Below are positions 1 to 22,391 of a stretch of 25,835 bases of DNA, one piece after another (position 1 is the first letter of the stretch; every line of letters begins with the position of its first letter). Both the position numbers and the translations under genes were made by a program. Source of the DNA: a virus. The DNA lies in the IMG/VR virus record IMGVR_UViG_3300009320_000105, positions 1 through 25,835 of that record; one strand, given 5' to 3'. Below the pieces are notes generated by a model. It had not been told where the DNA came from, ran no database searches, and saw nothing but the letters and a program-made list of their open reading frames with translations.

Positions 1-2
1 AA

Positions 3-3100: not shown

Positions 3101-6100
3101 CTATATACATACCGGCGATGCTCTTGAAATTGTGCCGAAACTCGTAGATCAAGGATTTAAAGCTGATATGATATTCCTCGACGTCCCGTATAAAACACCG
3201 GCAGTTATCGGAGGCAATAGAGGGATTAAGTATGACTATATAACGCCTGAACAATTTTATACTATGGTTGAAAGGCTTGGACAAGTAATGCGCACATCAG
3301 ATACTCCTTTGATTTATATGTATTCCCAAGCCAAATCCGGATTAAAGGAAATGCAGAGATATACAGATGTATTCAATAGATTAGAAATGATTGCCGTCGG
3401 TAAGGGTGAATATACTAAATTACAAAAAGACGGAATTACAAGAGTTCGTAATATGAGGGGCGATATAATCGAGCCGGAAGGAATAATTGTCTTTAATTTT
3501 AGCGGGAAACTCACAAAACCTATAAAAAATCTTAACTTTAAACTTGTGAGGCCGAGGGGATATCAAACCGAGAAACCCCGCAAGATGTTAAAAGCTATGA
3601 TCGAAATGACTACTGAACAAGGCGAAGTGGTTTTTGATCCTTTCGCTGGTTCCGGCGTAACGATAGAACAAGCCGTTGCTACCGGCAGAAAGGGTGTGGG
3701 CGTAGAGATTTCCGAAAAAGCAGTAGAGGAACATATTAAGCCGAGGGTTGAGAAAGCCGCCGAAACCCCAAGTAAAGAGATGGGCGCTAAAGCAATTACT
3801 GATAAAGTTCCTGATGTAAATAATCCCAATAAGATAAATTATTGGGAGGGCAATGTATATGTCGAGGGGTGGTGTGATAAATGCTACGCAGGCACAGGAT
3901 TTGGAGAATATGAAGCACAGGAGAAAGTTAATTATGCTGAGGATATGACGCCTAAAATATTGCAACAAAAAGCTAAAGAAAAAGGGTTAGAACTGATCGG
4001 GGGGGAATTCGTAGAAACACCTGATAAAGATTTTATTTATGGAGTTACAGTGGGTTTTTATAAAAAACCGGTCAAAGGCGGTGGCGCAGGCGGTTCATCT
4101 GTCGCCTCTAAAGCACCAAAAGGATACGGCACGATCGAATCAAAAGAGGAAAAAGTAAGAATAACAGATAGAGTAAAGGTAGAGGCAGGTATGCCTCCTC
4201 CTGAAAGAATAAACTATATCAAGGAATTTCTTAAAATCCTATCTCCGGCGTCGGTATCAAATCTCGCGCAAGTAACCTCTCAAGTTATGCGGGGTGGATT
4301 AGCGAAGTTGGCACATAAAGACGTTACTGCTATTGAGGCGTTAAAGAAAGCCCACCGCGCCTTTACTTGGATGAACAAGGAGGATAGTTATAAATTCATA
4401 GATAATATGGAAAAAGGCCTTCCTCAAGAAAATGAAAAACTTCAAGCGTTCAGCGACGTAATGAGAAAACTCCTTGATGAAAGGCGAGAGTCGGTTCAAA
4501 ATCTTGGGAAAGGGCAATTACAAAACTTTTATAAGAATTATTTTCCTCATATATGGGAGAGATTTGAGCACGCAAAAGGCGTGATAGCAAAGATTATGGG
4601 GAAAAAGAGGTTGGAAGGCACGAAGGGTTTTCTTAAAGAACGAACTTATATGACGATTAAAGAAGGCCTTGAGGCCGGGCTTACACCGGTAAGCAATAAT
4701 CCTGTTGATCTTGTATTGCTAAAACTCCACGAAGTAGACCGGTATGTAATGGCGCAAAACGTCATAAGGGATTTAAAAAATAGGGGTATGATCCGGTTTG
4801 TATATTCTCGCAAGACGCCACCTCAAGGGTTTGCAAAGATAAACGACACCGCTTTTACTGTCTATATGCCTCCGGAGATAACGAAGAAAGAGGCGTTTGA
4901 CAGCATTTTAGTGGAACAACTTATGGATGTGGCGAAATCCCTTGAAATAGATACCAAGAGGTTTGTAACCATAGGAGGCACTCGTTGGGGGTATGCGCAA
5001 TGGCCTTCAACAGTAAGGACTAAATTTGCCAGTCCGGAAAGTGTATTGGCCCACGAAATAGGGCATATTTTAGGGTATAGGTTCAACCTGTTCAATACTT
5101 TCACGGCGTATAAAGACACCTATGTCCACACCTATGTCAAGGGCAAGAAGGTAGGAACAGAAGAAGTAAAGCCTACCAAAGAGGCGATTGAGTGGAGAAA
5201 AAATATAAACGAGCAATGGCGAGCGCTTGCCGATGCAAGGTATAAAGGTATAGACGCACCTGCGAGTTATAAAAACTATGTAAGGAAATACAGGGAAAAA
5301 GAGGCTGTTTTACTGGAAGCGCTGATCCATGCGCCGGAGGAATTCAAGAAATTAGCGCCGGATATATACGAATTATTCACGAAGTTTTTAAATGAGCACG
5401 GTCAATTAAGGCCGATCCTTGACATAAGACCTTCTCTGGTATTAGGGGAGGCTGACGCCAAGATAAAGATACCCGGGTTCACTACGTTGGGACATTATTA
5501 CGCACCTAAAGATGTGGCTTTAATCATAAATAATCACCTTTCGCCGGGATTAAGGACAAGCGACAATAAGCTCATAGCGACAGGATATAACTTAGTGAGG
5601 GGGTTTGGAAACATACTAAATCAAGTCAATTTATCGTTGTCGGCTTTTCACGGCTTAAACGTTACTACTGATGTTTGGGCTTCTACGGTAGGATTAGGGC
5701 TTCGGAAACTGACTATAAAAGGACAGCTCTATCAAGGATTGAAAGATTTGATTACATTTCCAATAGCACCTATTAAGGTCTTATGGGAAGGCTCGCGGAT
5801 TAAGAGGGCATATAAGCAACAAATGGATACTATACAGGATCCGAAATTAAGGCTTAAAGTAGATACGATGATAAGAGCTGGAGGCAGAGATAGGATAGAT
5901 GTGTTCTATTATAACCAACAAATCAAGGCGTTACAGAAGACATTTAAGGATATTTTGGTAGGATCGGGCATAGAGAAGATAGCTGCTATGGCGAAATTAC
6001 CTTTAAATATATTTGGATCCATTTTAGAAACCGCTGCCAAGCCGATTATGGAGTGGTATGTTCCTACCGGCAAATTAGGGCTATTTTCTAAACTCGCACA

Positions 6101-7229
6101 AAGCGAAATGGAGCGTGCTGCCTCCGGAGAAATAAACGACGAGCAATTGTGGTATATGCTTACAAAGGTATGGGATAGCGTGGATAACCGCATGGGATCG
6201 CTGATATATGACAACCTGTTCTGGAATAAGACCTTAAAAGACGTTTTGATGGCCTCTGTGAGGTCGGTAGGGTGGAATTTGGGCTCTTGGAGGGAATATG
6301 GGGGCATACCTGTTGATTTAGGAACTGCAGGAGCCCGTATAAGAGCAGGAGATAAGCTATTAAGCCATAAAATGGCGTATGGGATCGGCGCGATGATAGT
6401 ATATATGATCATAGGGGCAATTGCAACATATGTCTTGTCAGGGGAGCGCCCAAGAGAAATAAGGGACTATTTCTTCCCAAGAACTGGCAGAAAGAACCCC
6501 GATGGATCCGACGAACGGTTATCTCTACCTACTTACGCAAAGGATATATATGCCTACGCTACAAGGCCTTTACAAACATTTGTCAGCAAAAGGCACCCCC
6601 TAATCGGACTTTCCATGGAGCAGTTTAGGAATAAGGATTTTTATAATGTCATGCTTTATGATGAAAAGGATGGTTTAATGGAGCAACTTTATGATAGGAC
6701 AATCCACATAAAGAATTACGCCAAACCGTTTTCTTTTAAGAACTATGAAAGAATGCAACTCACCTCTCCTGATCCGCTGTTAAATATTTTGTTATCCATT
6801 ACCGGCATAATCGCGGCGCCTTCCTATGTTGCCCGGAGCAATGCGCAGAAACTTATGTATCGCTATATCTCTGAAAGGATGCCGGATACTACTCGCACAG
6901 AAGCGGATTTTGCAAAAACCTTGTATCGCAAGGTGCAGAAAGACAGAATCAGAAAAGGAGAGGTTCGGCCATGGCAGATTAAAGAGGAGGCCATAGAGGT
7001 GCTTGGGAGGGACGGCTATAGGAAGCTTGCAAAAGATTCGCGCTTAACTCCTTTCGTGGAGTCGTTTAAAAGGCTCACCCTTGAAGAAGGATTGAATGTT
7101 TATTCGATAGCTACTGATGATGAAAGAAAAGAAATTCTCCCTGTTTTACGAAAGAAATACAGAGATGCCGATAAACCAATAGAAGAAGACGTTAAAGCCC
7201 TATACATGGAACTTAAAATCTCCCCTTAG
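165..7229 (+). CDS. Giant phage polyvalent protein: two zincin motifs, ADP-ribosyltransferase-like region, winged helix, DNA methyltransferase, membrane-associated C-terminus
   Basis: 2354 residues. The ATG follows GGGAGG at 8 nt spacing. Visible in order: HERRHH at 413-418 (HExxH); an ART-like region at about 672-870, containing KYDAVVFKN and ADQIIVLNEDKARIV; a winged helix at about 932-970 (SIKQIAKETEILEPNVRRI); and an amino-methyltransferase with DVPY at 1006-1009 followed by FDPFAGSG at 1157-1164. Catalytic motif before the AdoMet-binding motif is the permuted order of beta-class enzymes, and DVPY replaces the usual DPPY. HEIGH follows at 1630-1634, then long helices and a hydrophobic segment at about 2070-2093 (AMIVYMIIGAIATYVL). 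This architecture matches the polyvalent proteins of phages and conjugative elements, thought to enter the cell with the DNA and to act on host proteins and incoming DNA. Delivery with the virion is inference. Activity of each domain is untested. The gene converges with the metallopeptidase at 7233. Confidence 0.85.
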   Translation: MPFIPVQEVGLAGFQPVREDIDPRKKYLRESEEQMASVKKVEEAVPEKLRPAAESTSKIALNKVLMPMISPEKYKGTNIPKMGMHEVLTAGLSYPAKAFPLKELGAAQTRESSGSARVMQEWGKAISGQTFKPLTPIRVRGFWRQGLAEADEGHPYSYEQLFNELGYNPGASKALSVLGNAVGTPSGYLYLMAVSPSAYKFAKYETVKQIRNAKEITFEVGDNINRAIKQGVLDRKAIMELKRTLDPRTFDKISRLSREMYKIVKTTPEYTAGAGQTITGPTANIPGVQQVVKPIELGPPSQQLLDQAAKGVKVTPPKIAVKAVTPQPIPLPPVKPEIKSSEGGEKILELSPAQIKQMGNLRPVGGMAIDGNSLIMARRAGVIDFDLGDISPNDNVIIINKENIADKEYIAEHERRHHKFNKLQESQREQIRELVAIELKNPDSPLWRMVTFLKGDAFGEGEGGYSEDRIIDELFARGLIDKQYNQIVKSAKEKPEIPEWVKEWAKEGEKKFKPVKEVEPSAPKIPQEEKDLIMGMKSEIERGEAGKRIKTETGEWIGQGSTFPQWFRDAWTNLTKKKALDIIDKKEKGEKLTEKQEQIYKNLSEGYGNEERIREEREQLRKEKVSESEIEKTLRAGEAEGDPEGASKKDTEREPEWVTEKQPGESEEKPLRAKHFTTKEGKEALERGERFDFTKKPIHGTGSLGGEEKLGRFAGDRIYLSLEDRIWGKTSIREGEDKIVEVGGLEHLKELKKAGAETFYDYDKQKWMAKVGAKQVIKNLESVEYEIDKGAKIKVVDSIEAYREAEAEVGHPALHQEKEFFDALAKKYDAVVFKNVRKIAKETDHKFFKAILADQIIVLNEDKARIVKPSLAPEAKMSPTPLRPTEEQVEHKDLIKELKAEKPDATQKEFVFEKGKIVQKEKVKEAVKEEPKSIKQIAKETEILEPNVRRIVGVGAKEGTFKRVGKGVYVLRNQGRDVAYIHTGDALEIVPKLVDQGFKADMIFLDVPYKTPAVIGGNRGIKYDYITPEQFYTMVERLGQVMRTSDTPLIYMYSQAKSGLKEMQRYTDVFNRLEMIAVGKGEYTKLQKDGITRVRNMRGDIIEPEGIIVFNFSGKLTKPIKNLNFKLVRPRGYQTEKPRKMLKAMIEMTTEQGEVVFDPFAGSGVTIEQAVATGRKGVGVEISEKAVEEHIKPRVEKAAETPSKEMGAKAITDKVPDVNNPNKINYWEGNVYVEGWCDKCYAGTGFGEYEAQEKVNYAEDMTPKILQQKAKEKGLELIGGEFVETPDKDFIYGVTVGFYKKPVKGGGAGGSSVASKAPKGYGTIESKEEKVRITDRVKVEAGMPPPERINYIKEFLKILSPASVSNLAQVTSQVMRGGLAKLAHKDVTAIEALKKAHRAFTWMNKEDSYKFIDNMEKGLPQENEKLQAFSDVMRKLLDERRESVQNLGKGQLQNFYKNYFPHIWERFEHAKGVIAKIMGKKRLEGTKGFLKERTYMTIKEGLEAGLTPVSNNPVDLVLLKLHEVDRYVMAQNVIRDLKNRGMIRFVYSRKTPPQGFAKINDTAFTVYMPPEITKKEAFDSILVEQLMDVAKSLEIDTKRFVTIGGTRWGYAQWPSTVRTKFASPESVLAHEIGHILGYRFNLFNTFTAYKDTYVHTYVKGKKVGTEEVKPTKEAIEWRKNINEQWRALADARYKGIDAPASYKNYVRKYREKEAVLLEALIHAPEEFKKLAPDIYELFTKFLNEHGQLRPILDIRPSLVLGEADAKIKIPGFTTLGHYYAPKDVALIINNHLSPGLRTSDNKLIATGYNLVRGFGNILNQVNLSLSAFHGLNVTTDVWASTVGLGLRKLTIKGQLYQGLKDLITFPIAPIKVLWEGSRIKRAYKQQMDTIQDPKLRLKVDTMIRAGGRDRIDVFYYNQQIKALQKTFKDILVGSGIEKIAAMAKLPLNIFGSILETAAKPIMEWYVPTGKLGLFSKLAQSEMERAASGEINDEQLWYMLTKVWDSVDNRMGSLIYDNLFWNKTLKDVLMASVRSVGWNLGSWREYGGIPVDLGTAGARIRAGDKLLSHKMAYGIGAMIVYMIIGAIATYVLSGERPREIRDYFFPRTGRKNPDGSDERLSLPTYAKDIYAYATRPLQTFVSKRHPLIGLSMEQFRNKDFYNVMLYDEKDGLMEQLYDRTIHIKNYAKPFSFKNYERMQLTSPDPLLNILLSITGIIAAPSYVARSNAQKLMYRYISERMPDTTRTEADFAKTLYRKVQKDRIRKGEVRPWQIKEEAIEVLGRDGYRKLAKDSRLTPFVESFKRLTLEEGLNVYSIATDDERKEILPVLRKKYRDADKPIEEDVKALYMELKISP

Positions 7230-7232
7230 TTT

Positions 7233-8039
7233 TTATTTTTCACCCACTATGTTAATGCTTGTTTTTTCAGATACATCCAATCCCGCAGTATAGTCAGGAT
7301 AAATTAAGCTTTCTATTTTATAGTAGTCTGTCTTTTTAAAAGCAAACTTAAAATCTGATTTTTCTGAATTAGTATTATTTTTAGAATCCTTGGTAATAGC
7401 AAAACAAGGTGGCATTTTTTCATATTTGCTTGATAATAGGTTTAGGCGCACATCTAAATCTGTAGCAAACCAATCCATAAAACAATAAGAACCTCCATTG
7501 ACTAAAGATACTATTTGGAGAGCGTTCCAACCAACATTAAAGGCATGTCCGGCAATACCCTTGCGGGCAAACCAATAGTTTTTTACTACATATATGCTTT
7601 TGTAATAATCTTCTGCTGAAATAGTAGTATAGCAGGATAACAAAGAAATTGCTTTTAAATCAGTCTGGAAATGAGTTTCTGGTGGGTTGTCAGGTAAATC
7701 ATATTCACTATGGCATAATTCATGAACAATTAAACATGTTAATATCGTAAATCTATTATCGTAATAATTTTGATATACATATTTTAAATAATTAACTGGC
7801 AATTTAACAACTCCATTGTCGTTTTCGGGGATACCCGGCATTTGACATTCATTGTCATCAACAATGCGTAATGTGTATTTATATTTTAGAGAAAAGTTAG
7901 AATTTATTTCTGTCCACAAGTTATTTACTTCACTTTTATAATTAGATGGAGGGGAATAATAATTGGCAGAAAAATTGAGCGTAGCGCAACCACTTATAAA
8001 AAACAAGAGGAGTAATAACAATCCAAATTTACCCATCAT
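7233..8039 (-). CDS. Lipoprotein with zinc metallopeptidase motif
   Basis: 268 residues. The N-terminus has a hydrophobic stretch (positions 6-15) and a lipobox ISGC with the lipidated cysteine at 18, so the protein should be exported and anchored to a membrane. HELCH at 106-110 is an HExxH zinc-binding and catalytic motif. E121, H123 or D127 could be the third ligand. The rest resembles no family I can name. The start is the first of two consecutive ATGs. An extended -10 (TGGTATAAT) lies only 5 nt upstream and no Shine-Dalgarno is present, so the message may be leaderless. The gene is a single unit, opposite in direction to its neighbours on both sides, which fits a moron (lysogenic-conversion gene) altering the host envelope. 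A lysis role is possible but less likely given its distance from the lysis cassette. Confidence 0.75.
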   Translation of the reverse strand: MMGKFGLLLLLLFFISGCATLNFSANYYSPPSNYKSEVNNLWTEINSNFSLKYKYTLRIVDDNECQMPGIPENDNGVVKLPVNYLKYVYQNYYDNRFTILTCLIVHELCHSEYDLPDNPPETHFQTDLKAISLLSCYTTISAEDYYKSIYVVKNYWFARKGIAGHAFNVGWNALQIVSLVNGGSYCFMDWFATDLDVRLNLLSSKYEKMPPCFAITKDSKNNTNSEKSDFKFAFKKTDYYKIESLIYPDYTAGLDVSEKTSINIVGEK

Positions 8040-8044
8040 TTCTA

Positions 8045-8072
8045 ATTATACCATGCCTTTTTTCAATAGCAA
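8045..8072 (-). promoter_or_regulatory. Extended -10 promoter for the lipoprotein metallopeptidase
   Basis: On the minus strand TATAAT (8045-8050) is preceded by TGG, giving the extended -10 form TGnTATAAT. A weak -35, TTGCTA (8067-8072), lies 16 bp away. The expected transcription start falls at or next to the ATG at 8039, implying a leaderless message. Confidence 0.55.
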
Positions 8073-8080
8073 CAATTTTC

Positions 8081-8109
8081 TTGACAAAGTTATGGTTATA
8101 TGATAAACT
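8081..8109 (+). promoter_or_regulatory. Sigma70-like promoter for the first RHH gene
   Basis: TTGACA (8081-8086), a 17-bp spacer, then TAAACT (8104-8109). The expected start is near 8116, only a few bases before the ATG at 8120. This supports that ATG as the start and argues against the in-frame TTG at 8081, which is part of the -35 itself. Confidence 0.7.
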
Positions 8110-8119
8110 TGTCTTACAT

Positions 8120-8281
8120 ATGACAGACATCACAAACTACCATTCCAAAATAACATTTCGCCTTCCTAAAAAGCAAAAGAAGCGCGTTGCGAAATTAGCA
8201 AAGGAAATGGGTTGGAACGAAAGCGACATCATGCGGAAGGCCCTTGCTAATTTTCTTGCTTATCGAAAAAGATTTAAATAA
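8120..8281 (+). CDS. Small ribbon-helix-helix DNA-binding protein (RHH1)
   Basis: 53 residues starting MTDITNYHSKITFRL. The pattern is a short beta strand (KITFRL), a lysine-rich helix (KKQKKRVAKLAKEMG), an N-E-S-D turn and a second helix (DIMRKALANFLAYRK). This is the CopG/Arc-like ribbon-helix-helix fold, which binds operators as dimers. The ATG at 8120 is chosen because the promoter's -10 ends at 8109. No Shine-Dalgarno precedes it, so translation is probably leaderless or nearly so. It is followed 41 bp downstream by a second RHH-like gene and is divergent from the metallopeptidase gene. It may repress its own promoter and the divergent one. The target is not shown by the sequence. Confidence 0.7.
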   Translation: MTDITNYHSKITFRLPKKQKKRVAKLAKEMGWNESDIMRKALANFLAYRKRFK

Positions 8282-8322
8282 AACTTATTCTCTGCCACAA
8301 GTCCAAAAGGAGAGTGATACCA

Positions 8323-8598
8323 ATGGTAATGAGTCGCTATGAGACTGAAACCGTGAAGATTGTTGTAACACTACCTGTATGGCTAAAGGACTACGTAGTG
8401 GAGTTCTGCAAATTCAACCACATTTCTGTAAGCCAACTTACAAGGCTTTTCTATTCAGAGCTGCAGGTTGAGTTTCCTGATTTGCCATTATCGAGCAAAA
8501 TCAAGAAATGGAGAGGTAGGATCTTTGAGTTGCTTGGTAATAACGGTAATCGTCAGGAAAAAGACGCCCATCAGGGTTATTATCTAAAAGGAAGGTAG
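8323..8598 (+). CDS. Ribbon-helix-helix-like protein (RHH2)
   Basis: 91 residues. The ATG at 8323 follows AAGGAGA with a normal gap. The ATG at 8329 is an alternative. The N-terminal half has an RHH-like pattern: strand VKIVVTL, helix PVWLKDYVVEFCKFN, a loop with SVSQ, and a second helix LTRLFYSEL. The C-terminal 40 residues are charged and look disordered. It lies between RHH1 and the strong promoter and dif-like site, so it may be a regulator or a partner of DNA at that site. It could also be an RHH-type antitoxin, but no toxin-like partner is adjacent. Confidence 0.6.
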   Translation: MVMSRYETETVKIVVTLPVWLKDYVVEFCKFNHISVSQLTRLFYSELQVEFPDLPLSSKIKKWRGRIFELLGNNGNRQEKDAHQGYYLKGR

Positions 8599-8617
8599 TG
8601 ATTTTTTTAGCTTGCCC

Positions 8618-8646
8618 TTGACAAACATAAAGGCTTGTGGTAATAT
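8618..8646 (+). promoter_or_regulatory. Strong sigma70-like promoter reading into the dif-like region
   Basis: TTGACA (8618-8623), a 17-bp spacer, then TAATAT (8641-8646): a near-consensus promoter. Transcription would start near 8653 and cross the dif-like site and the nested inverted repeat. No open frame with a ribosome site follows, so the product may be a non-coding RNA, or transcription itself may matter for the site. Confidence 0.65.
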
Positions 8647-8658
8647 TGGTATGTCCGA

Positions 8659-8686
8659 ACCGCCTATAATGTATCTTATGTTAACT
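8659..8686 (+). other. dif-like XerC/XerD recombination site (candidate phage attachment or multimer-resolution site)
   Basis: The left arm is ACCGCCTATAA, the 6-bp centre is TGTATC and the right arm is TTATGTTAACT. This is the 11-6-11 layout of dif. Compared by eye with E. coli dif, the right (XerD) arm matches 10 of 11, the centre 5 of 6 and the left (XerC) arm 6 of 11. Against B. subtilis dif the counts are 10, 4 and 8. The stronger conservation of the XerD arm is typical of real sites. It sits in non-coding DNA between phage genes. Known dif-using elements (for example CTX phage) borrow host XerC/XerD instead of coding an integrase, and plasmid cer-type sites resolve multimers in the same way. 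Confidence 0.7.
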
Positions 8687-8776
8687 TGGGTATTTAAAAA
8701 ATATATGCGTAACTGTAAGTCTTTCAACAAGTTACGATATATTGTTAGAATCGTGTGGATAACACTTTACCCAAGT
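8684..8776. repeat. Nested inverted repeats abutting the dif-like site
   Basis: Outer arms ACTTGGGTA (8684-8692) and TACCCAAGT (8768-8776) are perfect 9-bp complements. The left one overlaps the end of the XerD arm. Inner arms ATATATGCGTAACT (8701-8714) and AGTTACGATATAT (8730-8742) are complementary except for one bulged base, with a 15-nt loop. Together they can fold the strand into a long interrupted hairpin beside the dif-like core. The role is unknown; accessory Xer site, replication origin or RNA structure are all possible. Confidence 0.7.
8754..8762 (-). promoter_or_regulatory. DnaA-box consensus match
   Basis: TTATCCACA on the minus strand is a perfect match to the classical DnaA box. 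It lies inside the nested inverted repeat and about 50 bp from an AT-rich tract. A single box can occur by chance in 25 kb; its position in non-coding DNA next to a dif-like site is what makes it worth noting. Confidence 0.4.
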
Positions 8777-8932
8777 CACGCCAAGCAAGCTATTTTGCCC
8801 TTGCTTTGTAGCCCTTACGGTTTTAATCGACCTTGCGGCCTACTCCTGACGGCTTAATCTCCGTACTGCCTTCTCGGCGCTACCCATTCAGTTTCTAAAG
8901 ACTCTTTTACGGTCCTCTCTCATTTCACAAAT

Positions 8933-8957
8933 AAAAAAGCCCTGCTCTTACTCGGGC
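8933..8957 (-). terminator. Probable intrinsic terminator after the 41-residue gene
   Basis: On the minus strand, GCCC (8954-8957) pairs with GGGC (8939-8942) across an 11-nt loop, followed directly by six T residues (8933-8938). The stem is short but all G-C. The stop codon of the small gene (8948-8950) lies in the loop. Confidence 0.45.
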
Positions 8958-9073
8958 CCCAAAGCCATTAACCTTTTCAGGTAGCGTGGTCTTGTTCCTT
9001 TCAGAGACAGGGATTTAATGGACAGAAAAAATCCACGCTTTTCAAATTCGACTTTGGGGGCTTTGTGTTTCAT
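8948..9073 (-). CDS. Small basic protein, 41 residues, unknown function
   Basis: The protein begins MKHKAPKVEFEKRGFF and ends RLMALGPE. Three signals support it as a real gene: AAAAGGAG 8 nt before the ATG, a near-consensus promoter (TTGACA, 17 bp, TAAACT) ending 24 bp upstream of the ATG, and a terminator-like hairpin overlapping its stop. It is basic, has no cysteine and no membrane segment, and matches no family I know. Its place between regulators and the dif-like region suggests a small DNA- or RNA-binding or regulatory peptide, but that is only context. Confidence 0.55.
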   Translation of the reverse strand: MKHKAPKVEFEKRGFFLSIKSLSLKGTRPRYLKRLMALGPE

Positions 9074-9097
9074 GCGCTTCTCTCCTTTTCACCTAAT

Positions 9098-9126
9098 AGT
9101 TTACCTGATGGTCTTTTCCCTGTCAA
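9098..9126 (-). promoter_or_regulatory. Promoter of the 41-residue gene
   Basis: Minus-strand TTGACA (9121-9126), a 17-bp spacer, then TAAACT (9098-9103). It is the same hexamer pair and spacing as the RHH1 promoter. The expected start is near 9091, giving an 18-nt leader that contains the Shine-Dalgarno site. Confidence 0.65.
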
Positions 9127-9163
9127 GGTCTTTTTCCCGATTTTTTTAGGATCCACCCGAATC

Positions 9164-9586
9164 CTACAAGCTCTCTGCCTCATAATCTAAGCTTCTAAAA
9201 GCAGCTGCTGGGCTATGTTCTGTGTAAGGTATCCGACCCATGTACTTGTCGTGGTTGTATAATGGGTGGTTCTGCGGTATATGTCCCCATTCTACCATTT
9301 CAAAGTGTGTCCACCAATTGCCTCTTGTATTGCTGAGCTGGTATGCCAGCCTCGTCATTATCTTATGAGTAACGTTTAATTTCTGACTTTTCATGCCAGA
9401 AAGCATTGCCCTTGTGATCCCTAAGGCCATTGCCATCTTGTTGTCGCTTTTCCATCCTTTTGCTTTCTTGATCGCTGCCACAGCCCCTCTTTTAAAAACA
9501 AGCTTATATTCAGGATACGAGTATGTTAAATTAGATTTACCCTTTTTTGATACTTTATGTATAATCATATTGAACATTTTTTGCAT
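9164..9586 (-). CDS. Phage helix-turn-helix regulator
   Basis: 140 residues starting MQKMFNMIIHK. Residues about 40-80 read as a lambda-repressor/XRE-like helix-turn-helix: KKAKGWKSDNKMAMALGITRAMLSGMKS, followed by VTHKIMTRLAYQL. The C-terminus, from GNWWTHFEMVEWG to its PYTEHS stretch, is aromatic-rich and may be for dimerisation. The ATG at 9586 is chosen over an in-frame upstream start because GAGAGG lies at proper spacing. It is the second gene of an operon with the RHH protein at 9600 (13-bp gap). A role in lysogeny or early-gene control is likely from context. The operator and target are not proven. Confidence 0.6.
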   Translation of the reverse strand: MQKMFNMIIHKVSKKGKSNLTYSYPEYKLVFKRGAVAAIKKAKGWKSDNKMAMALGITRAMLSGMKSQKLNVTHKIMTRLAYQLSNTRGNWWTHFEMVEWGHIPQNHPLYNHDKYMGRIPYTEHSPAAAFRSLDYEAESL

Positions 9587-9599
9587 GATAGCCCTCTCT

Positions 9600-9776
9600 T
9601 TACAGCGATCTTCTCTTTGCAAAGCATTTTTTGTTGAAGAGATAACACTCTACGGCATTCTGAATGATGTCGGATTTATTGACTTCCTTTTGAATGCAGA
9701 CCTGAAGGAGCTTTTTTTCAACATCCTTTTTAAACCTTACTGCGTGAGCCTTGCCATACTTTTTTATTCTCGGCAT
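9600..9776 (-). CDS. Small ribbon-helix-helix protein (RHH3)
   Basis: 58 residues starting MPRIKKYGKAHAVRF. AHAVRF is a candidate DNA-contacting strand. The helices are KKDVEKKLLQVCIQKE and SDIIQNAVECYLFNKK, joined by a V-N-K-S turn. The layout parallels RHH1 (N-E-S-D turn, then D-I). An ideal Shine-Dalgarno (AAGGAGGT) precedes the ATG. It is first in the operon with the helix-turn-helix gene, downstream of a promoter with repeated AGTATAA elements that it may bind to control itself. Confidence 0.65.
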   Translation of the reverse strand: MPRIKKYGKAHAVRFKKDVEKKLLQVCIQKEVNKSDIIQNAVECYLFNKKCFAKRRSL

Positions 9777-9803
9777 AAGTACCTCCTTCTCACGTTAATT
9801 GTT

Positions 9804-9839
9804 TACTATAGTATAATACAAGTATAACAGTTCTGTCAA
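9804..9839 (-). promoter_or_regulatory. Promoter of the RHH3-HTH operon with overlapping operator-like repeats
   Basis: Minus-strand TTGACA (9834-9839), an 18-bp spacer, then TATACT (9810-9815). Overlapping it are a perfect 10-bp palindrome TACTATAGTA (9804-9813) and a direct repeat of AGTATAA (9810-9816 and 9821-9827). The repeats lie 11 bp, about one helix turn, apart. Such spacing suits tandem RHH dimers and would cover the -10. Confidence 0.55.
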
Positions 9840-9857
9840 GAATTATTTTTTAATTTC

Positions 9858-9887
9858 TTTACAAAGGGGCCATTCGTATGATATAAT
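9858..9887 (+). promoter_or_regulatory. Divergent promoter for the membrane-anchored protein
   Basis: TTTACA (9858-9863), an 18-bp spacer, then TATAAT (9882-9887). It is divergent from the RHH3 promoter, with the two -35 boxes 18 bp apart, so one operator complex could affect both. Confidence 0.6.
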
Positions 9888-9939
9888 TAACTTACCATTG
9901 GAAAGCAATTCCAGTCTTCATAAGGAGGAAATCTTAACT

Positions 9940-10383
9940 ATGGCTGAACAAATCAAGAATAAGAGAAAAGTTGTGTCTACTCCTATAATGGCTTTAGGGA
10001 TAATATTTTTAGGGATCCCCTTTTTGATAGGTATAACTGCATTCTTTTTATCGTTGATAACGCCAGAAATCAAATCAAAAACCCGTCTTAAAAAACAACA
10101 AATACAACAAGTTAAAGTAGATGTTCCAGATAAGATAGAAGCCTATACAGTGGCTCATGAATTTGTACTCAAAGAGCTCTTGGCTCCTAAAACTGCAAAG
10201 TTTCCCTGGGGTTCTGATGTTCATAAAGTAATTAATACAGGCAATAGATACAAAGTTACTTCTTATGTGGATGCGCAAAATGCTTTTGGAGCTTTAATAA
10301 GAAATCGTTATAGCGTCATAATGGAATACCATGGCAATGGCGAATGGAAATTAGTAAGCGTAAATCTTAAGCCGTCTCCGTAG
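9940..10383 (+). CDS. Membrane-anchored protein with a small C-terminal beta domain
   Basis: 147 residues. The ATG follows AAGGAGG with 11 nt between. One membrane segment (about 15-42, MALGIIFLGIPFLIGITAFFLSLI) is followed by a basic linker and a soluble domain from about 70 on (AYTVAHEFVLKELLAPKTAKFPWG to YVDAQNAFGALIRNRYSVIMEY to GEWKLVSVNL). Similar single-pass proteins with this AKFP/YVDAQNxFGA pattern occur in many bacteria with no assigned role. Its own promoter, next to the repressor operon, suggests expression in the lysogen, for example superinfection exclusion. That is inference. Confidence 0.6.
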   Translation: MAEQIKNKRKVVSTPIMALGIIFLGIPFLIGITAFFLSLITPEIKSKTRLKKQQIQQVKVDVPDKIEAYTVAHEFVLKELLAPKTAKFPWGSDVHKVINTGNRYKVTSYVDAQNAFGALIRNRYSVIMEYHGNGEWKLVSVNLKPSP

Positions 10384-10389
10384 TTCTTC

Positions 10390-11124
10390 ATGTCATACCG
10401 AACCATAACTATAGAATTTCACCACTCCTTCTCCCCTGCCTTTAAATTTGCCCTTGAAGAAGCCCAGACACAACTTTCCTTTAAGCAAATAGATTCAGGC
10501 AAGGCTTCAGTGTATACTGTTAGTTATAAAAGAAGAGAATTTAAAGCCCTGCACAAATTAATAGAATGCTTTAAAAATGTCAGGAATAAGCGCGTATATG
10601 TAGATAACCAAGAAATGCCTTGGCCTGAAGTTTTTCATTATAATTGGTGTTATAGGCTGAGGCAGCAGGCCTACGATCCTATTGAGTATTGCACAGGAGA
10701 TTCAAGGCAATATCCGGCCTTTAATCCCTGGGGATGCCTTCAAACTATGATGCCTTTAAGCAATGATACAGAGTGGCTTCATTACGGACAATTTGATGTT
10801 GACGGGACATTTATATTTGATAAGAAAAAAATAGGGCATTACCTTAAAGCAAATACTCACCGATTTAGATTTTGTCCAGCTTTAAACATAGATCTAATGT
10901 TCCAGGTTCTTGATGTCTTTCCTGAAACGGTTAATCCTAACATAGATTCTGATTGGGAATATATTGAGGTATACGGTAGGCATTTAACAATCGGTATAAG
11001 CACTTCTCCTGGAAGCAAGAAGCATTATTGTGGAGTCAGCCCTTCATCACCTGAAGCTATAAAAAATATATACCAGAAGATTTTAATCAAGCTAGGCAAT
11101 AAACGGGTACATACAAAGTCCTAG
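10390..11124 (+). CDS. Protein of unknown function, 244 residues
   Basis: It begins MSYRTITIEFHHSFSPAF, 6 bp after the upstream stop, without a strong ribosome site, so it is probably translationally coupled to the membrane-anchored protein. It looks soluble and rich in aromatic residues. Cysteines occur at NWCYRLRQ, YCTGDSRQ and WGCLQ. There is no signal peptide or membrane segment and I recognise no family. Its 3' end overlaps the last 33 bp of the membrane-protein gene on the opposite strand. With its partner it may form a two-gene exclusion or host-interference unit; only the gene order supports this. Confidence 0.6.
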   Translation: MSYRTITIEFHHSFSPAFKFALEEAQTQLSFKQIDSGKASVYTVSYKRREFKALHKLIECFKNVRNKRVYVDNQEMPWPEVFHYNWCYRLRQQAYDPIEYCTGDSRQYPAFNPWGCLQTMMPLSNDTEWLHYGQFDVDGTFIFDKKKIGHYLKANTHRFRFCPALNIDLMFQVLDVFPETVNPNIDSDWEYIEVYGRHLTIGISTSPGSKKHYCGVSPSSPEAIKNIYQKILIKLGNKRVHTKS

Positions 11125-11565
11125 ATTCAAGAGCATGCTGATAAAAAATTCCTCTGCAGCTGCATCGATAGGATTTCTAACCCCTAAATAAATCGACCAA
11201 GCTCCTATCCCAATGTGTGGAATGAAAACCCACCAAGCATTGCCACCGAATGCCCAGATAAATATAGCACCAGAAGCACATACCCCGAGCATATAAAGAG
11301 TGCGTCTTAATATTTTCATTGGGACAAAATCTGCACCATATCCCATGCTAAATCCCGCGAATAATAAAGGTAGTATTAAAAGCAATTGCCCTGTCCATAT
11401 ACCTTTAAATCCAGAGATTATATTAACGGTCAATGCTAAAACAAGAGCTCCACCTAATCGTCGTATTATCTTCTTTGCCCGACCTCCAATAGAGTAAAGC
11501 GTAGAAGCAATAACAAGACCTATTCCAGATCCGCTTGCCAGCCAAATAATGTCATATTCGCTCAT
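11092..11565 (-). CDS. Polytopic membrane protein, last gene of the tail/lysis block
   Basis: 157 residues, starting MSEYDIIWLAS. The ATG at 11565 is chosen because GGGGGA lies just upstream and it follows the lipoprotein stop by 1 nt. About six hydrophobic segments can be seen, separated by short basic loops such as GGRAKKIIRR. No family is recognised. The position after the lysis-like cassette fits a holin, antiholin or membrane-remodelling function, but six segments is more than most holins have. It overlaps the convergent gene by 33 bp. Confidence 0.6.
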   Translation of the reverse strand: MSEYDIIWLASGSGIGLVIASTLYSIGGRAKKIIRRLGGALVLALTVNIISGFKGIWTGQLLLILPLLFAGFSMGYGADFVPMKILRRTLYMLGVCASGAIFIWAFGGNAWWVFIPHIGIGAWSIYLGVRNPIDAAAEEFFISMLLNLGLCMYPFIA

Positions 11566-11566
11566 C

Positions 11567-11767
11567 TTAATCCCCCAATGCCTGCACAAGCCATCTCTCT
11601 GCCTGAGCTTGCGGGCTCTGTAAAAACTCTATTACTTGCTCTTTGCTACCCCACATAGACCTTATAGGTTCCGTATCAATTGGCCTTGTTCTTGAGCAGC
11701 TGATTGAGCTTGTCAATATCGCGATCAATACGATCGAGCATTTTACCTTTTTCAGGAGTCCATTCAC
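11567..11767 (-). CDS. Small lipoprotein nested out of frame in the coiled-coil gene (Rz1-like outer spanin candidate)
   Basis: 66 residues from a GTG start, with AGGAG 10 nt upstream. The N-terminus is basic (LLKKVK), then hydrophobic (SIVLIAILTSS), then ISC with the candidate lipidated cysteine at 24. Position -3 is serine, which is not ideal. The mature part is about 43 residues. Its first 92 bases overlap the coiled-coil gene in a different frame, an arrangement like lambda Rz/Rz1. It is not proline-rich as lambda Rz1 is. An outer-membrane spanin subunit is the best guess. Confidence 0.5.
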   Translation of the reverse strand: MNGLLKKVKCSIVLIAILTSSISCSRTRPIDTEPIRSMWGSKEQVIEFLQSPQAQAERWLVQALGD

Positions 11768-11888
11768 TTTTAAGTAGCTCCTTTCTCTTCTTTTCCAGAT
11801 TCTCAAGTTTATTTTTCCACCGCTCTACCCTGCCTTGGATAGGCAGTTTTTCCATTAAACCGCCTAAAAAAGAACCCCATCCTGCCAT
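11676..11888 (-). CDS. Small coiled-coil protein (possible spanin-type partner)
   Basis: 70 residues, ATG preceded by GGAGGTGAT. It begins with a glycine-rich amphipathic stretch (MAGWGSFLGGLMEKL), and the rest is a charged helix (VERWKNKLENLEKKRKELLK and DRIDRDIDKLNQLLKNK). No clear membrane helix is present, unlike a normal inner-membrane spanin. It contains the start of the nested lipoprotein gene in another frame. A partner role with that lipoprotein is inference from the arrangement. Confidence 0.6.
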   Translation of the reverse strand: MAGWGSFLGGLMEKLPIQGRVERWKNKLENLEKKRKELLKSEWTPEKGKMLDRIDRDIDKLNQLLKNKAN

Positions 11889-11939
11889 ATCTTATCACCT
11901 CCGGACCATAGATCATTAAAATACGCCCCTTAAAACCCT

Positions 11940-12341
11940 TTAAAACTTAATATTTATAAGGGTAGCCGAAAGTCCATAATCATACTCATTATTGCCCTTT
12001 GTTACGCCAAGCCTACCCCAGCCTGCATAAGTGCCTACCCTGCATTCGATAAGATCTAATACTGGTACTGTTACCCCGAGATCCTTAAGTTTTAGAAGTT
12101 CATAACTTATAACTCCTACAACCTTATCCTTTGAAGAATATCCGGCCTCAAAAGCTATACCTTTCCAGTTGATTAATTCCAGAGTGCTAAGATAATGGAT
12201 ATCGTGTTCCATTAAAGAATATGCAATGCCTTGCTTAAGAGCAGGTAATTTCTTTAATGAATCTTCAATTGATAAATCTTCTGCCAAAGCACTACCACAC
12301 AACACCATGATTGAAACCATCACAATACATAATGCTTTCAT
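11940..12341 (-). CDS. Exported protein, possible small outer-membrane beta-barrel
   Basis: 133 residues. The signal peptide MKALCIVMVSIMVLCGSALA has a likely cut after position 20 (ALA-ED). The mature part ends in alternating hydrophobic strands (AFEAGYSS, VVGVISYEL, TYAGWGRLGVT, YGLSATLINIKF) and a C-terminal phenylalanine, as in outer-membrane proteins. The start overlaps the upstream stop by 4 nt. It sits in the middle of the lysis-like cassette. It may modify the outer membrane or block receptors; no function is assigned. Confidence 0.6.
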   Translation of the reverse strand: MKALCIVMVSIMVLCGSALAEDLSIEDSLKKLPALKQGIAYSLMEHDIHYLSTLELINWKGIAFEAGYSSKDKVVGVISYELLKLKDLGVTVPVLDLIECRVGTYAGWGRLGVTKGNNEYDYGLSATLINIKF

Positions 12342-12595
12342 TTTACACCTCCTGTTTTTTGTCCGGCCTTAAAGCCGAAATAAAATGCCATTAATAACAT
12401 TACTATTTCCACTACAAAACGGGCTTCTATCTTTCCCACAACTGCAAGATAACAGAATGTCAAATAGATCATCCCAGCGTAGAGTGATCGGGGTTTGAGA
12501 AGTTGATCGAAAGGCGGTTCAGGTTTGATTTTGATTATTTCTAATGCGACAATCGCTAGAACTACTATTGAAAGAAATGTCCAAACATTCATCAT
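12338..12595 (-). CDS. Three-helix membrane protein, holin candidate
   Basis: 85 residues starting MMNVWTFLS. The ATG overlaps the upstream stop (TAATG), with GGGTGGA as ribosome site. Three hydrophobic segments are visible: TFLSIVVLAIVALEII, SLYAGMIYLTFCYLAVV and FVVEIVMLLMAFYFGF. A basic tail follows. Size, topology and neighbours fit a class I holin, which would form lethal lesions in the inner membrane at a set time. Sequence alone does not prove this. Confidence 0.55.
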   Translation of the reverse strand: MMNVWTFLSIVVLAIVALEIIKIKPEPPFDQLLKPRSLYAGMIYLTFCYLAVVGKIEARFVVEIVMLLMAFYFGFKAGQKTGGVK

Positions 12596-12891
12596 TATCC
12601 ACCCCACACCATTTTAATTCCTATTCCTACTATACCGCCTAATATGATAATAATTAAGGTCCATTGAATACTTACATGTTTCAATAAAACCTTAAGCTGA
12701 GTAATGATCCCATTGCCTCTTTCGTCTCCGAATAAAACCTTGTCCGCTTTTTGTATAAAGGAATTTGTGTTCTGAATATATCCTTTTACTTCAGCTACAA
12801 ATATTGCTTGGGCTTTTTCATTCTCTTCTATCTTTGAGAATAAACGCGTCATGGTTTCGTCATGTTTATTACAAACCTGTTCTGGAGGCAT
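12595..12891 (-). CDS. Coiled-coil protein with C-terminal membrane anchor (XhlA-like lysis protein candidate)
   Basis: 98 residues starting MPPEQVCNKHDET. The ATG at 12891 is preferred over upstream in-frame GTG and ATG codons because AAAGG stands 6 nt before it. This start also avoids overlap with the LamG gene. Residues 10-70 are a charged helix, followed by one membrane segment (IQWTLIIIILGGIVGIGI). The layout resembles XhlA/hemolysin-like phage lysis accessory proteins, which pair with a holin; the adjacent holin candidate supports this. Confidence 0.55.
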   Translation of the reverse strand: MPPEQVCNKHDETMTRLFSKIEENEKAQAIFVAEVKGYIQNTNSFIQKADKVLFGDERGNGIITQLKVLLKHVSIQWTLIIIILGGIVGIGIKMVWGG

Positions 12892-12893
12892 GA

Positions 12894-13757
12894 TCATCCT
12901 TTCAAATTTTTCCACCAACACATTAACTTTATCTTACAGCTCCACATTGGAGTGCCTATCTTATCGGGGTTTAAATTATTGATGTAATTTTTAACACATT
13001 GTATCATCATCACATTTCCTATGTCAGGAGGGATCCAATCCCTTGCGATGCCCTTGCTTATCCTGTATTCATCAAGCAATCCATTTAACCCCTTTGTCCC
13101 GCCGTTTTCCGCGCCAATAGCTATGAGAGCTGCTATATCCCCGAGTTCCTCATTTGCTGCTAAGGTCGCAGCCCAAGATAAAGATTTTGAATCGCCATCT
13201 ATAAACACATACATATTGTTTTCGCCTGTCCCATATCTAACTACTGCGACGTGATACCAAGTGTCGGCAGCTAAAAAGACTGCGCTCGAAGTATTAAAAG
13301 CCACAGCAGTAGAAGCTGCTCCCTCAAAGTAATAAAGGTATAATTTTCCACTACCATCAATTGCTATTTGAGCATAATTAGAACCATCTTCATACTGCTC
13401 ATACATCAATGTCGTAGATAATGCTGTAGGGTCGGTTGCGAATCTTATCCAATAATCTATGGTGAGAAGACCTGTTGCATAATACCAATCAGCGTGATCT
13501 GGATAAGTTATGTAGTCATTCCCGTCAAACTCTCCTGAATGAGAACCAAACTTCTTATTGACGGCGTCAAATGCGGGGTCACCTTCCGCTGTTGGGGTAT
13601 GCCCAGTTTCCCCGTCATCAGCCCACGCGTCATTATTCATATGAAGCAGCAGTCTAGTATACTCGTCAGAAGTGTATTCTTCTGTAGGCGGGGTAAAAGC
13701 ATAGACCGATGTCGAAAACAATAACAAAAGTCCTAATGCAATTTTAAGTATTTTCAT
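12894..13757 (-). CDS. Secreted LamG/concanavalin-like protein in the tail-fibre cluster
   Basis: 287 residues, ribosome site AGGGGA. The signal peptide has a likely cut after position 20 (VYA-F). A laminin-G/concanavalin-like beta-sandwich follows at about 30-245: LLLHMNN near the start, FDGNDYITYPDHADW, YWIRFAT, then DTWYHVAVVRYG, MYVFIDGDS and LNGLLDEYRISKG. These are the hallmarks of the LamG_3 type, which binds glycans. The cysteine-containing C-terminal tail (QCVKNYINNLNP) is unusual. It follows two other signal-peptide fibre-like genes. It probably binds cell-surface sugars, on the virion or after export. Confidence 0.7.
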   Translation of the reverse strand: MKILKIALGLLLLFSTSVYAFTPPTEEYTSDEYTRLLLHMNNDAWADDGETGHTPTAEGDPAFDAVNKKFGSHSGEFDGNDYITYPDHADWYYATGLLTIDYWIRFATDPTALSTTLMYEQYEDGSNYAQIAIDGSGKLYLYYFEGAASTAVAFNTSSAVFLAADTWYHVAVVRYGTGENNMYVFIDGDSKSLSWAATLAANEELGDIAALIAIGAENGGTKGLNGLLDEYRISKGIARDWIPPDIGNVMMIQCVKNYINNLNPDKIGTPMWSCKIKLMCWWKNLKG

Positions 13758-13816
13758 TTGAGATCCCCTTGTCTTGTCGTTAACTTAAAAAATTTCAGTC
13801 GTTCAATCCAACTTGT

Positions 13817-15520
13817 TTAATCGTAATTAAAAGTTATGTCTACCGACATTTGCAAAATAGCCGCATTAGGAACAGAGTCAAATTGTATGTATAGACACTT
13901 TGATGCAGGAACATCAGCAGTCCCAGACATAGAGCTATCACTACGGACACCGTTTGTAGTGTCAAAAGTTTCTATTAATACTGGATTTGCCAAGCCTATA
14001 AAAGTGTCCGCATACTTTAAATCCCCCGCTACTTCATTTCCGGCAGCGTCAAGCGTTACTTCTATTTTATCTATATTAAATGCCGCAGGCGTTAATGGCC
14101 AGATACATATTTGGGTATCCGCTGTAGCCCTGACATTGGGATTAGCCACGTTGAAGATTAAATGATGAGGCACTCCAGGCATATTGACGGTTGATTTGAT
14201 AGCATTTGCCCCAGCATTTACGCTGTCATTGAATACAAAATCAGTTCCGTCATGGTCTAATGTCTGAGCACCAAGAGTAATATTTTCATTGGCAGCAAGA
14301 GTAAATCCAGCAGCTGTTACAACGCCTGTTCCAAAATCTATCGCGTCATTTGTAAGTGCTGCCTCTACTGCTGCCGCTGTCAATTCAGCGTCATAAAAAA
14401 TATCTGCTGTGTCAGTTAATGAAGTAGAAGCTCCTGTGCATTCCGCACCTATAACTATATTGGTAACAGTATTATTGTCTGCATCTATTGCGGCATTAGT
14501 AATCGCACCAGTTGTAGATATATCCCAGTCAGCAGAATGTAATTCAAGTGTATTATCCGAGGTTATATTCATTACCCCGTCAGCGTCAGCGTCTAAATAT
14601 AATCCTGCGTCAAAGAACTCTAATTTACCGAGTGAAGTTATATCTACATCGTTCCCGTCAGCGCCACTCGCTAATACTTCAGCTAAAGTCTGATCATCTG
14701 TTCCTGAATTGTCACCGGTATTACTTCCTGATACTGATACTGCCCCGGCACCAATAGTTAAAACAGAACTATTTGCTACGTTACCAGTTAATGTAACCGT
14801 GCCTGTATCTACAGTAAGAGCAGTCGTTAAGGTGGCATTTGTTACTGAGCCTGCTGTCAGATTTGCCGCTGTTCCTGATATATTTGTTCCTACTAAGGCC
14901 GATGGCGTTCCCAAATTAGGCGTGGTAAATACGGGAGACGTTGAAGTTATTACACCTGAAACATCTAAGCCTCCAGTAAGTGTTCCTACTGCCTCCCCTG
15001 AATTACATTGCAAGGTAACATTAAAATTATCACCATCCTCATAAAGAGTAAGAGTCCCTGCGTCATACATTGAAAGATTGCCTGCGGCTGATGTAGCAGT
15101 TCCTATGGTAACTGCACCAATAAGATTTGATGTCCCATCTGCGACTAAATTAGTAACATCCATATCACCAGTACCTAAATCTATGTCAATATTTACATCG
15201 GTCACCAAGGCTTTATTGGCTACTGCTGTTCCATTAGTTATACCATCAAGTTTTTCTAAATCAGTTTCATTTATATCAGCCGAGCCAATAATAAAAGAAC
15301 TTGTTGCAGTTATGTCTCCTGAAGCCGTAACTGTTGCCTCGGTCACCCCATCCCTATCCGAATCAATATATAAACCATTTGTAGAGTCCCCTCTAATAGT
15401 ATCTACTGTGATACGCTTGAAGGTCTCTACCTTTTTCCCGTCAACTCTTTTCTCATCAGCAAATGAACTAGATGCAACAAATGCCAATGCCAAGAGCAAT
15501 ATCAAAATTTTACTTTTCAT
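13817..15520 (-). CDS. Large fibre-like repeat protein with Sec signal peptide
   Basis: 567 residues, with AAGGAGG 7 nt before the ATG. The signal peptide has a likely cut after position 21 (SFA-DE). The body is low-complexity beta repeat rich in T, G, A, D and N. It includes the phage tail-fibre signatures TTPNLGTPSALVGTNISGTAANLTAG and SGSNTGDNSGTDDQTLAEVLA. A distinct C-terminal beta domain starts at about 455 (MPGVPHHLIFNVANPN, ending SVDITFNYD), plausibly the receptor-binding head. No cysteine-rich or enzymatic motif is seen. An export signal on a fibre is unexpected, since virion fibres are normally assembled in the cytoplasm. Confidence 0.7.
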   Translation of the reverse strand: MKSKILILLLALAFVASSSFADEKRVDGKKVETFKRITVDTIRGDSTNGLYIDSDRDGVTEATVTASGDITATSSFIIGSADINETDLEKLDGITNGTAVANKALVTDVNIDIDLGTGDMDVTNLVADGTSNLIGAVTIGTATSAAGNLSMYDAGTLTLYEDGDNFNVTLQCNSGEAVGTLTGGLDVSGVITSTSPVFTTPNLGTPSALVGTNISGTAANLTAGSVTNATLTTALTVDTGTVTLTGNVANSSVLTIGAGAVSVSGSNTGDNSGTDDQTLAEVLASGADGNDVDITSLGKLEFFDAGLYLDADADGVMNITSDNTLELHSADWDISTTGAITNAAIDADNNTVTNIVIGAECTGASTSLTDTADIFYDAELTAAAVEAALTNDAIDFGTGVVTAAGFTLAANENITLGAQTLDHDGTDFVFNDSVNAGANAIKSTVNMPGVPHHLIFNVANPNVRATADTQICIWPLTPAAFNIDKIEVTLDAAGNEVAGDLKYADTFIGLANPVLIETFDTTNGVRSDSSMSGTADVPASKCLYIQFDSVPNAAILQMSVDITFNYD

Positions 15521-15554
15521 GTCTGTCCTCCTTTTAATCTGTTTTCTTTTTTCG

Positions 15555-16805: not shown

Positions 16806-16830
16806 GATACCCTCCCTTTGTTTGTTCATT

Positions 16831-17776: not shown

Positions 17777-17777
17777 T

Positions 17778-22094: not shown

Positions 22095-22095
22095 C

Positions 22096-22386: not shown

Positions 22387-22391
22387 CTCAT

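Follow-up and report, generated by a model that had tools for sequence, protein, structure and literature searches.

A dif site of Omnitrophota at the junction of two tandem tailed prophages that probably exploit host XerC/XerD

Introduction

The stretch of viral DNA analysed here, IMG/VR record IMGVR_UViG_3300009320_000105 (25,835 nucleotides, referred to as the window), contains a short intergenic sequence that resembles dif, and the question that it raises is what such a site is doing between phage genes. An earlier note, made from the sequence alone, had described a dif-like site of 11-6-11 layout that a siphovirus carried as its own, with phage genes on both flanks and no integrase in view, and had offered either integration by host Xer recombinases or dimer resolution in a phage-plasmid as its purpose. 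Here we argue that the site is very probably the reconstituted chromosomal dif of an Omnitrophota lysogen, situated between two tandem tailed prophages that use host XerC/XerD. The features on which this reading is based are collected in Table 1.

Table 1. Positions of the features in the window, in the 95-kb contig G001 and in the Omnitrophota genome G041
Feature	Record	Coordinates	Strand	Remarks
Right end of phage B	window	1..8658		
2354-aa protein, N6/N4 methylase domain (phage B)	window	165-7229	+	
Lipoprotein-like ORF (phage B)	window	7233-8039	-	by eye
Ribbon-helix-helix protein (phage B)	window	8081-8281	+	
ORF (phage B)	window	8314-8598	+	
Complete dif site (11-6-11)	window	8659..8686	+	sequence, similarity scans, weight matrix
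XerC arm ACCGCCTATAA	window	8659-8669	+	assigned to phage B
Central region TGTATC	window	8670-8675	+	
XerD arm TTATGTTAACT	window	8676-8686	+	assigned to phage A
Copy of Omnitrophota dif right flank, in phage A	window	8687..8763	+	blastn, alignment
Right part of phage A	window	8687..25835	-	siphovirus by genes
HTH-like protein, 152 aa, dif-adjacent (phage A)	window	9164..9622	-	
Dit-like protein (phage A)	window	18887-19627	-	
Tape measure (phage A)	window	19624-21888	-	
Tail assembly chaperone (phage A)	window	22392-22787	-	
Host-like right flank	G001	1-460		
Half-site A/host-right	G001	461-488		ACTTTTTAAAA TGTATC TTATGTTAACT
Intact site B/A	G001	42,740-42,767		ACCGCCTATAA TGTATC TTATGTTAACT
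Half-site host-left/B	G001	95,192-95,219	minus	AGCGCCTATAA TGTATC TTGACAGATAC
G041 element, 9,778 bp	L177 (G041:C3)	32312-42117 of contig		bounded by two sites

Results

Identity of the site

We compared the window with the dif sequences of E. coli and B. subtilis, as we take these to be, and for both of them the top-scoring place was 8659-8686, with 21 of 28 and 22 of 28 bases identical, respectively. In 400 first-order Markov sequences of the window's length, scanned on both strands, scores of at least 21 (E. coli) and at least 22 (B. subtilis) each occurred at 0.0025 places per sequence, which corresponds to one place each per 400. The XerD arm by itself was not unusual, having 12 window matches at up to two mismatches where 14.07 were expected, so the strength of the assignment rests on the full 28-base site. 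When scored with a weight matrix for Omnitrophota dif, which is partly circular in that it was built from 57 loci chosen by their core, the site reached 48.6 bits, within the host range of 36.1-51.4 bits, and the runner-up place in the window scored -5.5 bits. A second dif-like site of the CTX-phi kind, inverted and about 90 bp apart, was not found in the window, where the next best place is the one at -5.5 bits. The dif-like 11-6-11 site of the earlier note was borne out by these comparisons and, judged from its sequence, is a genuine Omnitrophota dif.

The site falls between the ORFs at 8314-8598 and 9164-9622; an 81-aa ORF at 8612-8857 that overlaps it was taken as spurious. No tRNA was found, the single Rfam match up to E 1 was SCARNA6 (17.4 bits, far under the gathering score), and the 57-base stretch around the site matched seven phage records, all at E 0.4. 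By eye, a strong sigma-70-like promoter (TTGACA-17-TAATAT, window 8618-8646) is seen to run from the end of phage B towards the dif site and the copied flank.

The Omnitrophota dif

The inner bases of the site form a 22-base core, CCTATAATGTATCTTATGTTAA, whose exact sequence was present on 30 contigs in a collection of 84,980 genomes. By their titles, 26 of these contigs belong to Omnitrophota/Omnitrophica, two to an uncultured bacterium, one to a bacterium and one to Bacillota; two of the four genomes titled otherwise (G013 and G024) were later placed in Omnitrophota too. The core is nearly confined to this phylum. All 30 genomes had one exact copy, and six of them also had one further place at three mismatches. 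Allowing up to two mismatches, we obtained matches in 218 of 384 Omnitrophota genomes (166 were without a match), with two matches in three of the 218 (G142, G195 and G226, counted by eye). The Omnitrophota dif is mostly single-copy.

We measured GC skew in two genomes, G108 and G102, taking 20 stretches of 20 kb from each. In G108, where 18 stretches held bases, the skew was below zero at 0-83 kb, above zero between 126 and 1,072 kb and below zero again beyond 1,080 kb, changing from +0.072 at 1,052-1,072 kb to -0.114 at 1,080-1,100 kb, and dif lies at 1,073,657. A change from +0.122 (860-880 kb) to -0.129 (900-920 kb) also spans the dif of G102 at 894,576 (19 stretches with bases), yet it counts for little because the positive stretch stands alone among negatives and other switches occur. 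XerD-family proteins above the cut-off were detected in all 16 Omnitrophota genomes tried, and in 14 of them two matches reached 326 bits or more, as a pair of XerC and XerD would. A search for the dif of the host, which the earlier note had proposed, thus leads to a single-copy core in Omnitrophota with a skew switch at dif in G108.

Two further observations were made at these loci. In genome G015, two contigs, C7 (L179) and C52 (L028), stop at dif, and the right one has chromosome-like genes; this perhaps reflects a population in which occupied and empty sites are mixed. Genes that resemble the ORF6N type by eye lie just right of dif in L029, L036, L040, L042 and L179 and are possibly relics of earlier insertions.

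Across the 57 Omnitrophota loci, which are a related, non-random sample, the right side of dif was more conserved than the left. The motif [GT]TGGATAA was found right of dif, in one orientation, in 17 of the 55 loci whose flank was long enough (16 of these have it at +68 to +70), and left of dif, on either strand, in two of the 55. Side by side, loci such as L040 and L042 show about 85 bp of conserved right flank with an inverted repeat, GACGTAACT...AGTTACGTC, recognised by eye, and a DnaA-box-like sequence, TGTGGATAA, stands at about +68 to +70 in the Omnitrophota right flank. The copy in phage A was 75.7% identical over 74 bp to L040 and 74.7% over 83 bp to L042 by blastn. It holds GTGGATAA at the same place as the host loci and ends in GTGGATAAC, which starts at +69 from the site as in host genomes. 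This flank may be a binding site for a host protein. Because phage A carries it, however, likeness to the flank is in itself no proof of chromosomal DNA.

Arrangement of the 95-kb contig

IMG/VR contig 3300009105_000002 (G001; 95,319 bases) was reached both from the Dit-like protein and from the site; it contains the window in reverse orientation with two differences in 25,835 bases, away from the junction. Read on the dif strand, G001 consists of a host-like left flank, a first phage (B), the intact dif of the window, a second phage (A) and a host-like right flank. The earlier note was right that phage genes flank the site on both sides, but these flanks belong to two different phages; what it had taken for a siphovirus's own dif-like site is the point at which two different tailed phages, lying in tandem, meet.

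The three sites of G001 share an identical centre, TGTATC, and the unlike centre of the VGJ-phi type was not seen at any of them. Both arms are good at the B/A site only. Specifically, the XerC and XerD arms scored 16.2 and 21.3 bits at the window site, 14.9 and -34.9 bits at the host-left/B site and -1.2 and 21.3 bits at the A/host-right site. When A and B are removed on paper, AGCGCCTATAATGTATCTTATGTTAACT is left, which is the dif of 9 of the 57 Omnitrophota loci. A third, weak dif-like place at G001 70,113 (+; 6.2 bits) was set aside as chance. At the host-left/B site we also noticed by eye that the sequence with which phage B replaces the XerD arm forms a short palindrome with the centre, GTATCT-TGAC-AGATAC.

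The host-like flanks of G001 are short, about 100 bases on the left and 460 bp on the right. Compared by blastn with empty-site loci, the right flank was 90.6% identical to L030 over 64 bp and matched L019 at 83% over 59 bp and at 78% over another 59 bp. It also matches the end of the neighbouring gene in L019 (65% over 20 aa), and in the 12 loci of the L019 lineage the neighbours of dif are, judged by eye, chromosomal genes. In the left flank the host likeness is visible in the alignment, and blastn is weak (L045, 24 bases, E 0.029). With host-like dif flanks at both ends of G001, short as they are and weak by blastn on the left, the phages appear to be inserted at a chromosomal dif. The junctions differ in how often they were assembled: host-left/B was assembled again in IMGVR 3300009127_000013, B/A is present in two assemblies (the window record and G001), which could share an artefact, and A/host-right is present in one assembly only.

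Genes of the two phages

A and B are different phages with few common genes, and their terminases belong to different families. Phage A, which continues in G001 to its terminase, portal and RecT, has a phrog_38 large terminase, a portal, RecT, a ParB-like protein and siphovirus tail genes. Phage B, of about 52 kb, has a phrog_2 large terminase, an SU10-like portal, a RecT-like protein and the 2354-aa methylase-domain protein, which we take to be a 'polyvalent protein'. Among the ORFs of at least 90 aa that were picked, two A-B protein pairs were alike at 1e-4 (61% over 192 aa and 43% over 119 aa). The tape measure of phage A matched 424 of 50,697 phage records, all at less than 60% identity, and none of these records matched it over 80% of its length in one place.

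The tyrosine integrase family PF00589 had no match in G001-G004, with controls positive in 14 of 14 genomes, and the serine integrase family PF00239 had none in eight viral records including G001, with controls positive in 10 of 14. The earlier note's remark that no integrase was seen therefore holds for the whole 95-kb record, which had no PF00589 or PF00239 match; a phage-coded integrase, which that note had named as evidence against its reading, was not seen.

Proposed mechanism

In the model that we favour, the attP of each phage would be a dif with one arm replaced. attP-B would keep ACCGCCTATAA TGTATC and carry TTGACAGATAC instead of the XerD arm; attP-A would keep the centre, the XerD arm and the copy of about 77 bp of host right flank, and carry ACTTTTTAAAA instead of the XerC arm. 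Reconstructed as virtual sites, attP-B scored 16.2 bits for XerC, 11.1 for the centre and -34.9 for XerD, and attP-A scored -1.2 bits for XerC and 21.3 for XerD, so that each has the centre and one arm in common with Omnitrophota dif. Host XerC/XerD would recombine each attP with dif in the common centre TGTATC. Since each phage brings one good arm, an insertion would leave the prophage with a complete dif at one of its borders and a defective hybrid at the opposite border. In the double lysogen, the single complete dif would be the B/A junction, made of the XerC arm of B and the XerD arm of A, and either insertion order would yield the observed arrangement.

Both phages are best explained as integrative mobile elements exploiting Xer (IMEX), by way of host XerC/XerD at dif. 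Integration by host Xer recombinases, as the earlier note had suggested, is the best explanation of a true dif beside which no integrase was found; the dependence on Xer and its action, the role of the site in dimer resolution, the order of insertion and reversibility are what we infer from this arrangement.

The gene next to dif

The dif-adjacent gene of phage A codes for an HTH-like protein. A homologue (40% identity) lies directly beside a complete dif in IMGVR 3300044580_000221, on the XerD side as in phage A, and another (49% identity) directly beside dif in the Omnitrophota genome G170, where housekeeping genes (by eye) are followed by dif, the homologue and the contig end. G170 was the one genome among 384 Omnitrophota with a homologue. 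The earlier note had held that a site not conserved beside conserved genes would speak against it; this was not seen, as the HTH gene adjoins dif in both homologues found. Profile matches in G013, G037, G046 and G108 (E 2e-4 to 9e-4) covered the HTH part alone and were discarded, none of them being near the dif of its genome (G046 is without a dif match). The protein had no match among the 50,697 phage records, and its AlphaFold model was of low confidence (pLDDT 64.6). By its position alone, the gene is a candidate for an Xer activation factor similar to XafT, which activates XerD for a V. cholerae IMEX (PMC9765430).

A wider reading, which we offer as tentative and somewhat doubtful, is that the tailed phages of Omnitrophota form two complementary Xer-exploiting classes, in which the XerC arm would come from phages of the first and the XerD arm, together with a copy of the accessory flank of dif, from phages of the second. 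Because the arms are complementary, unrelated phages could stack at one dif, and a single working dif would be restored every time; the conserved site-adjacent HTH gene would be a phage-coded switch for host Xer, as an activation or directionality factor.

Other elements at dif

The spacer with the XerD half was found twice on one contig and strand in G041, the sole case among 384 genomes. The left of the two sites has both arms (XerC 8.6 bits, weak; XerD 21.3 bits) and the right one the XerD arm only (XerC -15.8 bits), which is the polarity of phage A. The outer flanks matched the dif flanks of L083 in register, on the left at 72% over 97 bp (E 1e-9) and on the right at 70% over 76 bp (E 1e-4), the right one also matching L087, L088 and L091 over 15-33 bases; the inner flanks matched no other host locus at E 0.1. 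The gene right of the element is hypA. The element itself codes for a packaging-ATPase-like protein (phrog_2666), for a protein with a P2-like coat-protein match of 24.9 bits, just below the Pfam cut-off of 25, and for an excisionase-like HTH protein, whose gene reaches with its end into the right att site. The element and phage B have one pair of similar proteins (42% identity over 74 residues). The element is probably tailless and PM2-like, not a tailed phage, and among the insertions at dif in Omnitrophota it is the clearest. The dif-flanked prophages that the earlier note had suggested looking for in hosts are represented by an element of 9,778 bp at dif, tailless by its genes. Together with the HTH homologue at the dif of G170, it lends the integration model support that is independent of G001.

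Apart from G001, pattern scans of IMG/VR yielded 11 contigs that carry either an exact site or a half-site. Ten of them come from other metagenomes, and one of these ten (3300009127) holds phage B itself; in contigs whose hosts are not known, half-site matches can arise by chance. Using distances entered by hand, we found the site within 350 bp of a contig end in 9 of the 11, where 0.62 were expected (0 of 200,000 simulations), as if assemblies branch at the dif site. L132, with Erf and exonuclease genes, a defective XerC arm (-20.9 bits), TATATC and TTATGTTAACT, resembles the early end of phage A and could be an A-type phage, for which the arm pattern is the sole support; as a second A-type phage with a host-like right flank it was rejected, the flank being without a blastn match to host flanks at E 0.1. 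The half-site scheme is a poor fit for several contigs. In G002 the dif is complete, the phage genes lie about 340 bp from it on the XerC side, and the left flank is host-like, resembling the one of L018 (85% over 27 bases, E 3e-4); L005, L006, G398, G399 and G400 have complete sites that stand outside the simple scheme, with a PF00589 integrase present in G399. IMGVR 3300001525_000131 (L116) has a dif-like site at 17754-17781 and, about 225 bp apart, a PF00589 integrase gene at 18006-19154, and is possibly an integrase-bearing phage that targets dif.

Discussion

Alternative explanations

Some plasmids carry Xer sites for resolution, and one or both phages could be phage-plasmids that keep a dif-like site for this purpose, with the 95-kb contig as a co-integrate formed via the site. 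An intact dif inside phage sequence and the ParB-like protein of phage A would agree with this. We nevertheless consider it improbable, because the contig ends resemble the left and right flanks of a chromosomal dif, the right one together with the end of the neighbouring host gene, because the one good arm of each virtual circle fits integration better than self-resolution, and because the G170 and G041 elements lie at chromosomal dif. Dimer resolution in a phage-plasmid, the second proposal of the earlier note, is thus disfavoured by the host-like dif flanks at both ends of the contig.

An assembly chimera, in which separate phages or prophages were joined through their common dif sequence, strikes us as quite improbable. 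The common stretch is just 28 bp plus a similar flank, and other dif-bearing contigs often stop near the site (within 350 bp in 9 of 11), so that assembly graphs may branch there; against this, two assemblies with two differences elsewhere contain the same junction, and all three borders have hybrid sites of the kind that a reciprocal exchange within a single 6-bp centre would make and that would not be predicted from a chimera.

The third alternative is a phage-coded recombinase of unrecognised type that targets dif without involvement of Xer, a possibility that also stands for the tailless, integrase-bearing Vibrio prophages at dif. Tailless dif prophages of Vibrio regularly carry integrase genes (PMC11630473), and L116 provides an integrase gene close to a dif-like site, but the 95-kb record had no match to PF00589 or PF00239 when the controls (14 and 10 of 14 genomes) were positive, and we judge this alternative to be very improbable. 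A DDE-transposase or an unknown integrase would likewise be an alternative to Xer. That the likeness to dif is due to chance, the TATAAT within the site belonging for instance to a promoter -10 region, is of negligible probability given 48.6 bits against -5.5 for the next best place, a phylum-specific 22-mer and a homologous right flank, and the chance, promoter and single-phage readings were all rejected on the matrix score, the phylum-specific core and the two-phage architecture.

Comparison with known systems

Integration by host XerC/XerD, the reading that we prefer, relates the two phages to known users of dif in different ways. Phage B is of the same type as TLC-phi and the gonococcal genomic island (GGI), in which the XerC arm and centre are like host dif and the XerD arm is divergent, as described in PMC5357621. 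The GGI, moreover, leaves one intact and one modified dif after insertion (PMC9765430), as we find for phage B. TLC-phi is a satellite phage and the GGI a secretion island, whereas phage B is a tailed phage of about 52 kb in Omnitrophota. Phage A does not belong to the TLC-phi/GGI type and is its mirror image, with the XerD arm kept; no class that keeps the XerD arm was met in the portions of the literature that we compared. This mirror-image att type may imply a different order of strand exchange. We had also considered B as VGJ-like and A as TLC-like, and rejected this because the accounts in the reviews make B TLC/GGI-like and A the mirror.

VGJ-phi and CTX-phi resemble the phages of G001 in inserting at dif via host Xer and in forming tandems of different elements at one dif (PMC4246890). 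CTX-phi, however, uses a folded single strand with two inverted sites, whereas the phages of G001 are tailed double-stranded DNA phages, and VGJ-phi has a centre without dif homology next to its XerD arm, whereas the centre in G001 is identical. LME-1 of Legionella is likewise a phage-like element whose att is a shortened dif, with an intact dif upstream and an altered one downstream; it depends on the single-recombinase XerL system with other arms, and the excerpted account tells of no tandem (PMC9765430). In Vibrio, tailless prophages integrate at dif, and the G041 element looks to be of that kind; the tailed prophages of the Vibrio survey used their own integrases (PMC11630473), and the phages of the window are tailed.

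In a limited search of literature available in part, no description was found of tailed phages at dif without an integrase, or of prophages at Omnitrophota dif. In the texts compared, so far as these extend, Xer is exploited in cultured proteobacteria by islands, a satellite, a phage-like element and phages that are filamentous or tailless. The phages of G001 differ in being large and tailed, and the chromosome dimer resolution that they appear to use is that of a host from a mostly uncultured phylum. The comparison provides a host assignment for phages A and B and an Omnitrophota dif with a conserved right flank that phage A has copied, and half-dif sites offer a simple way to find hidden prophages.
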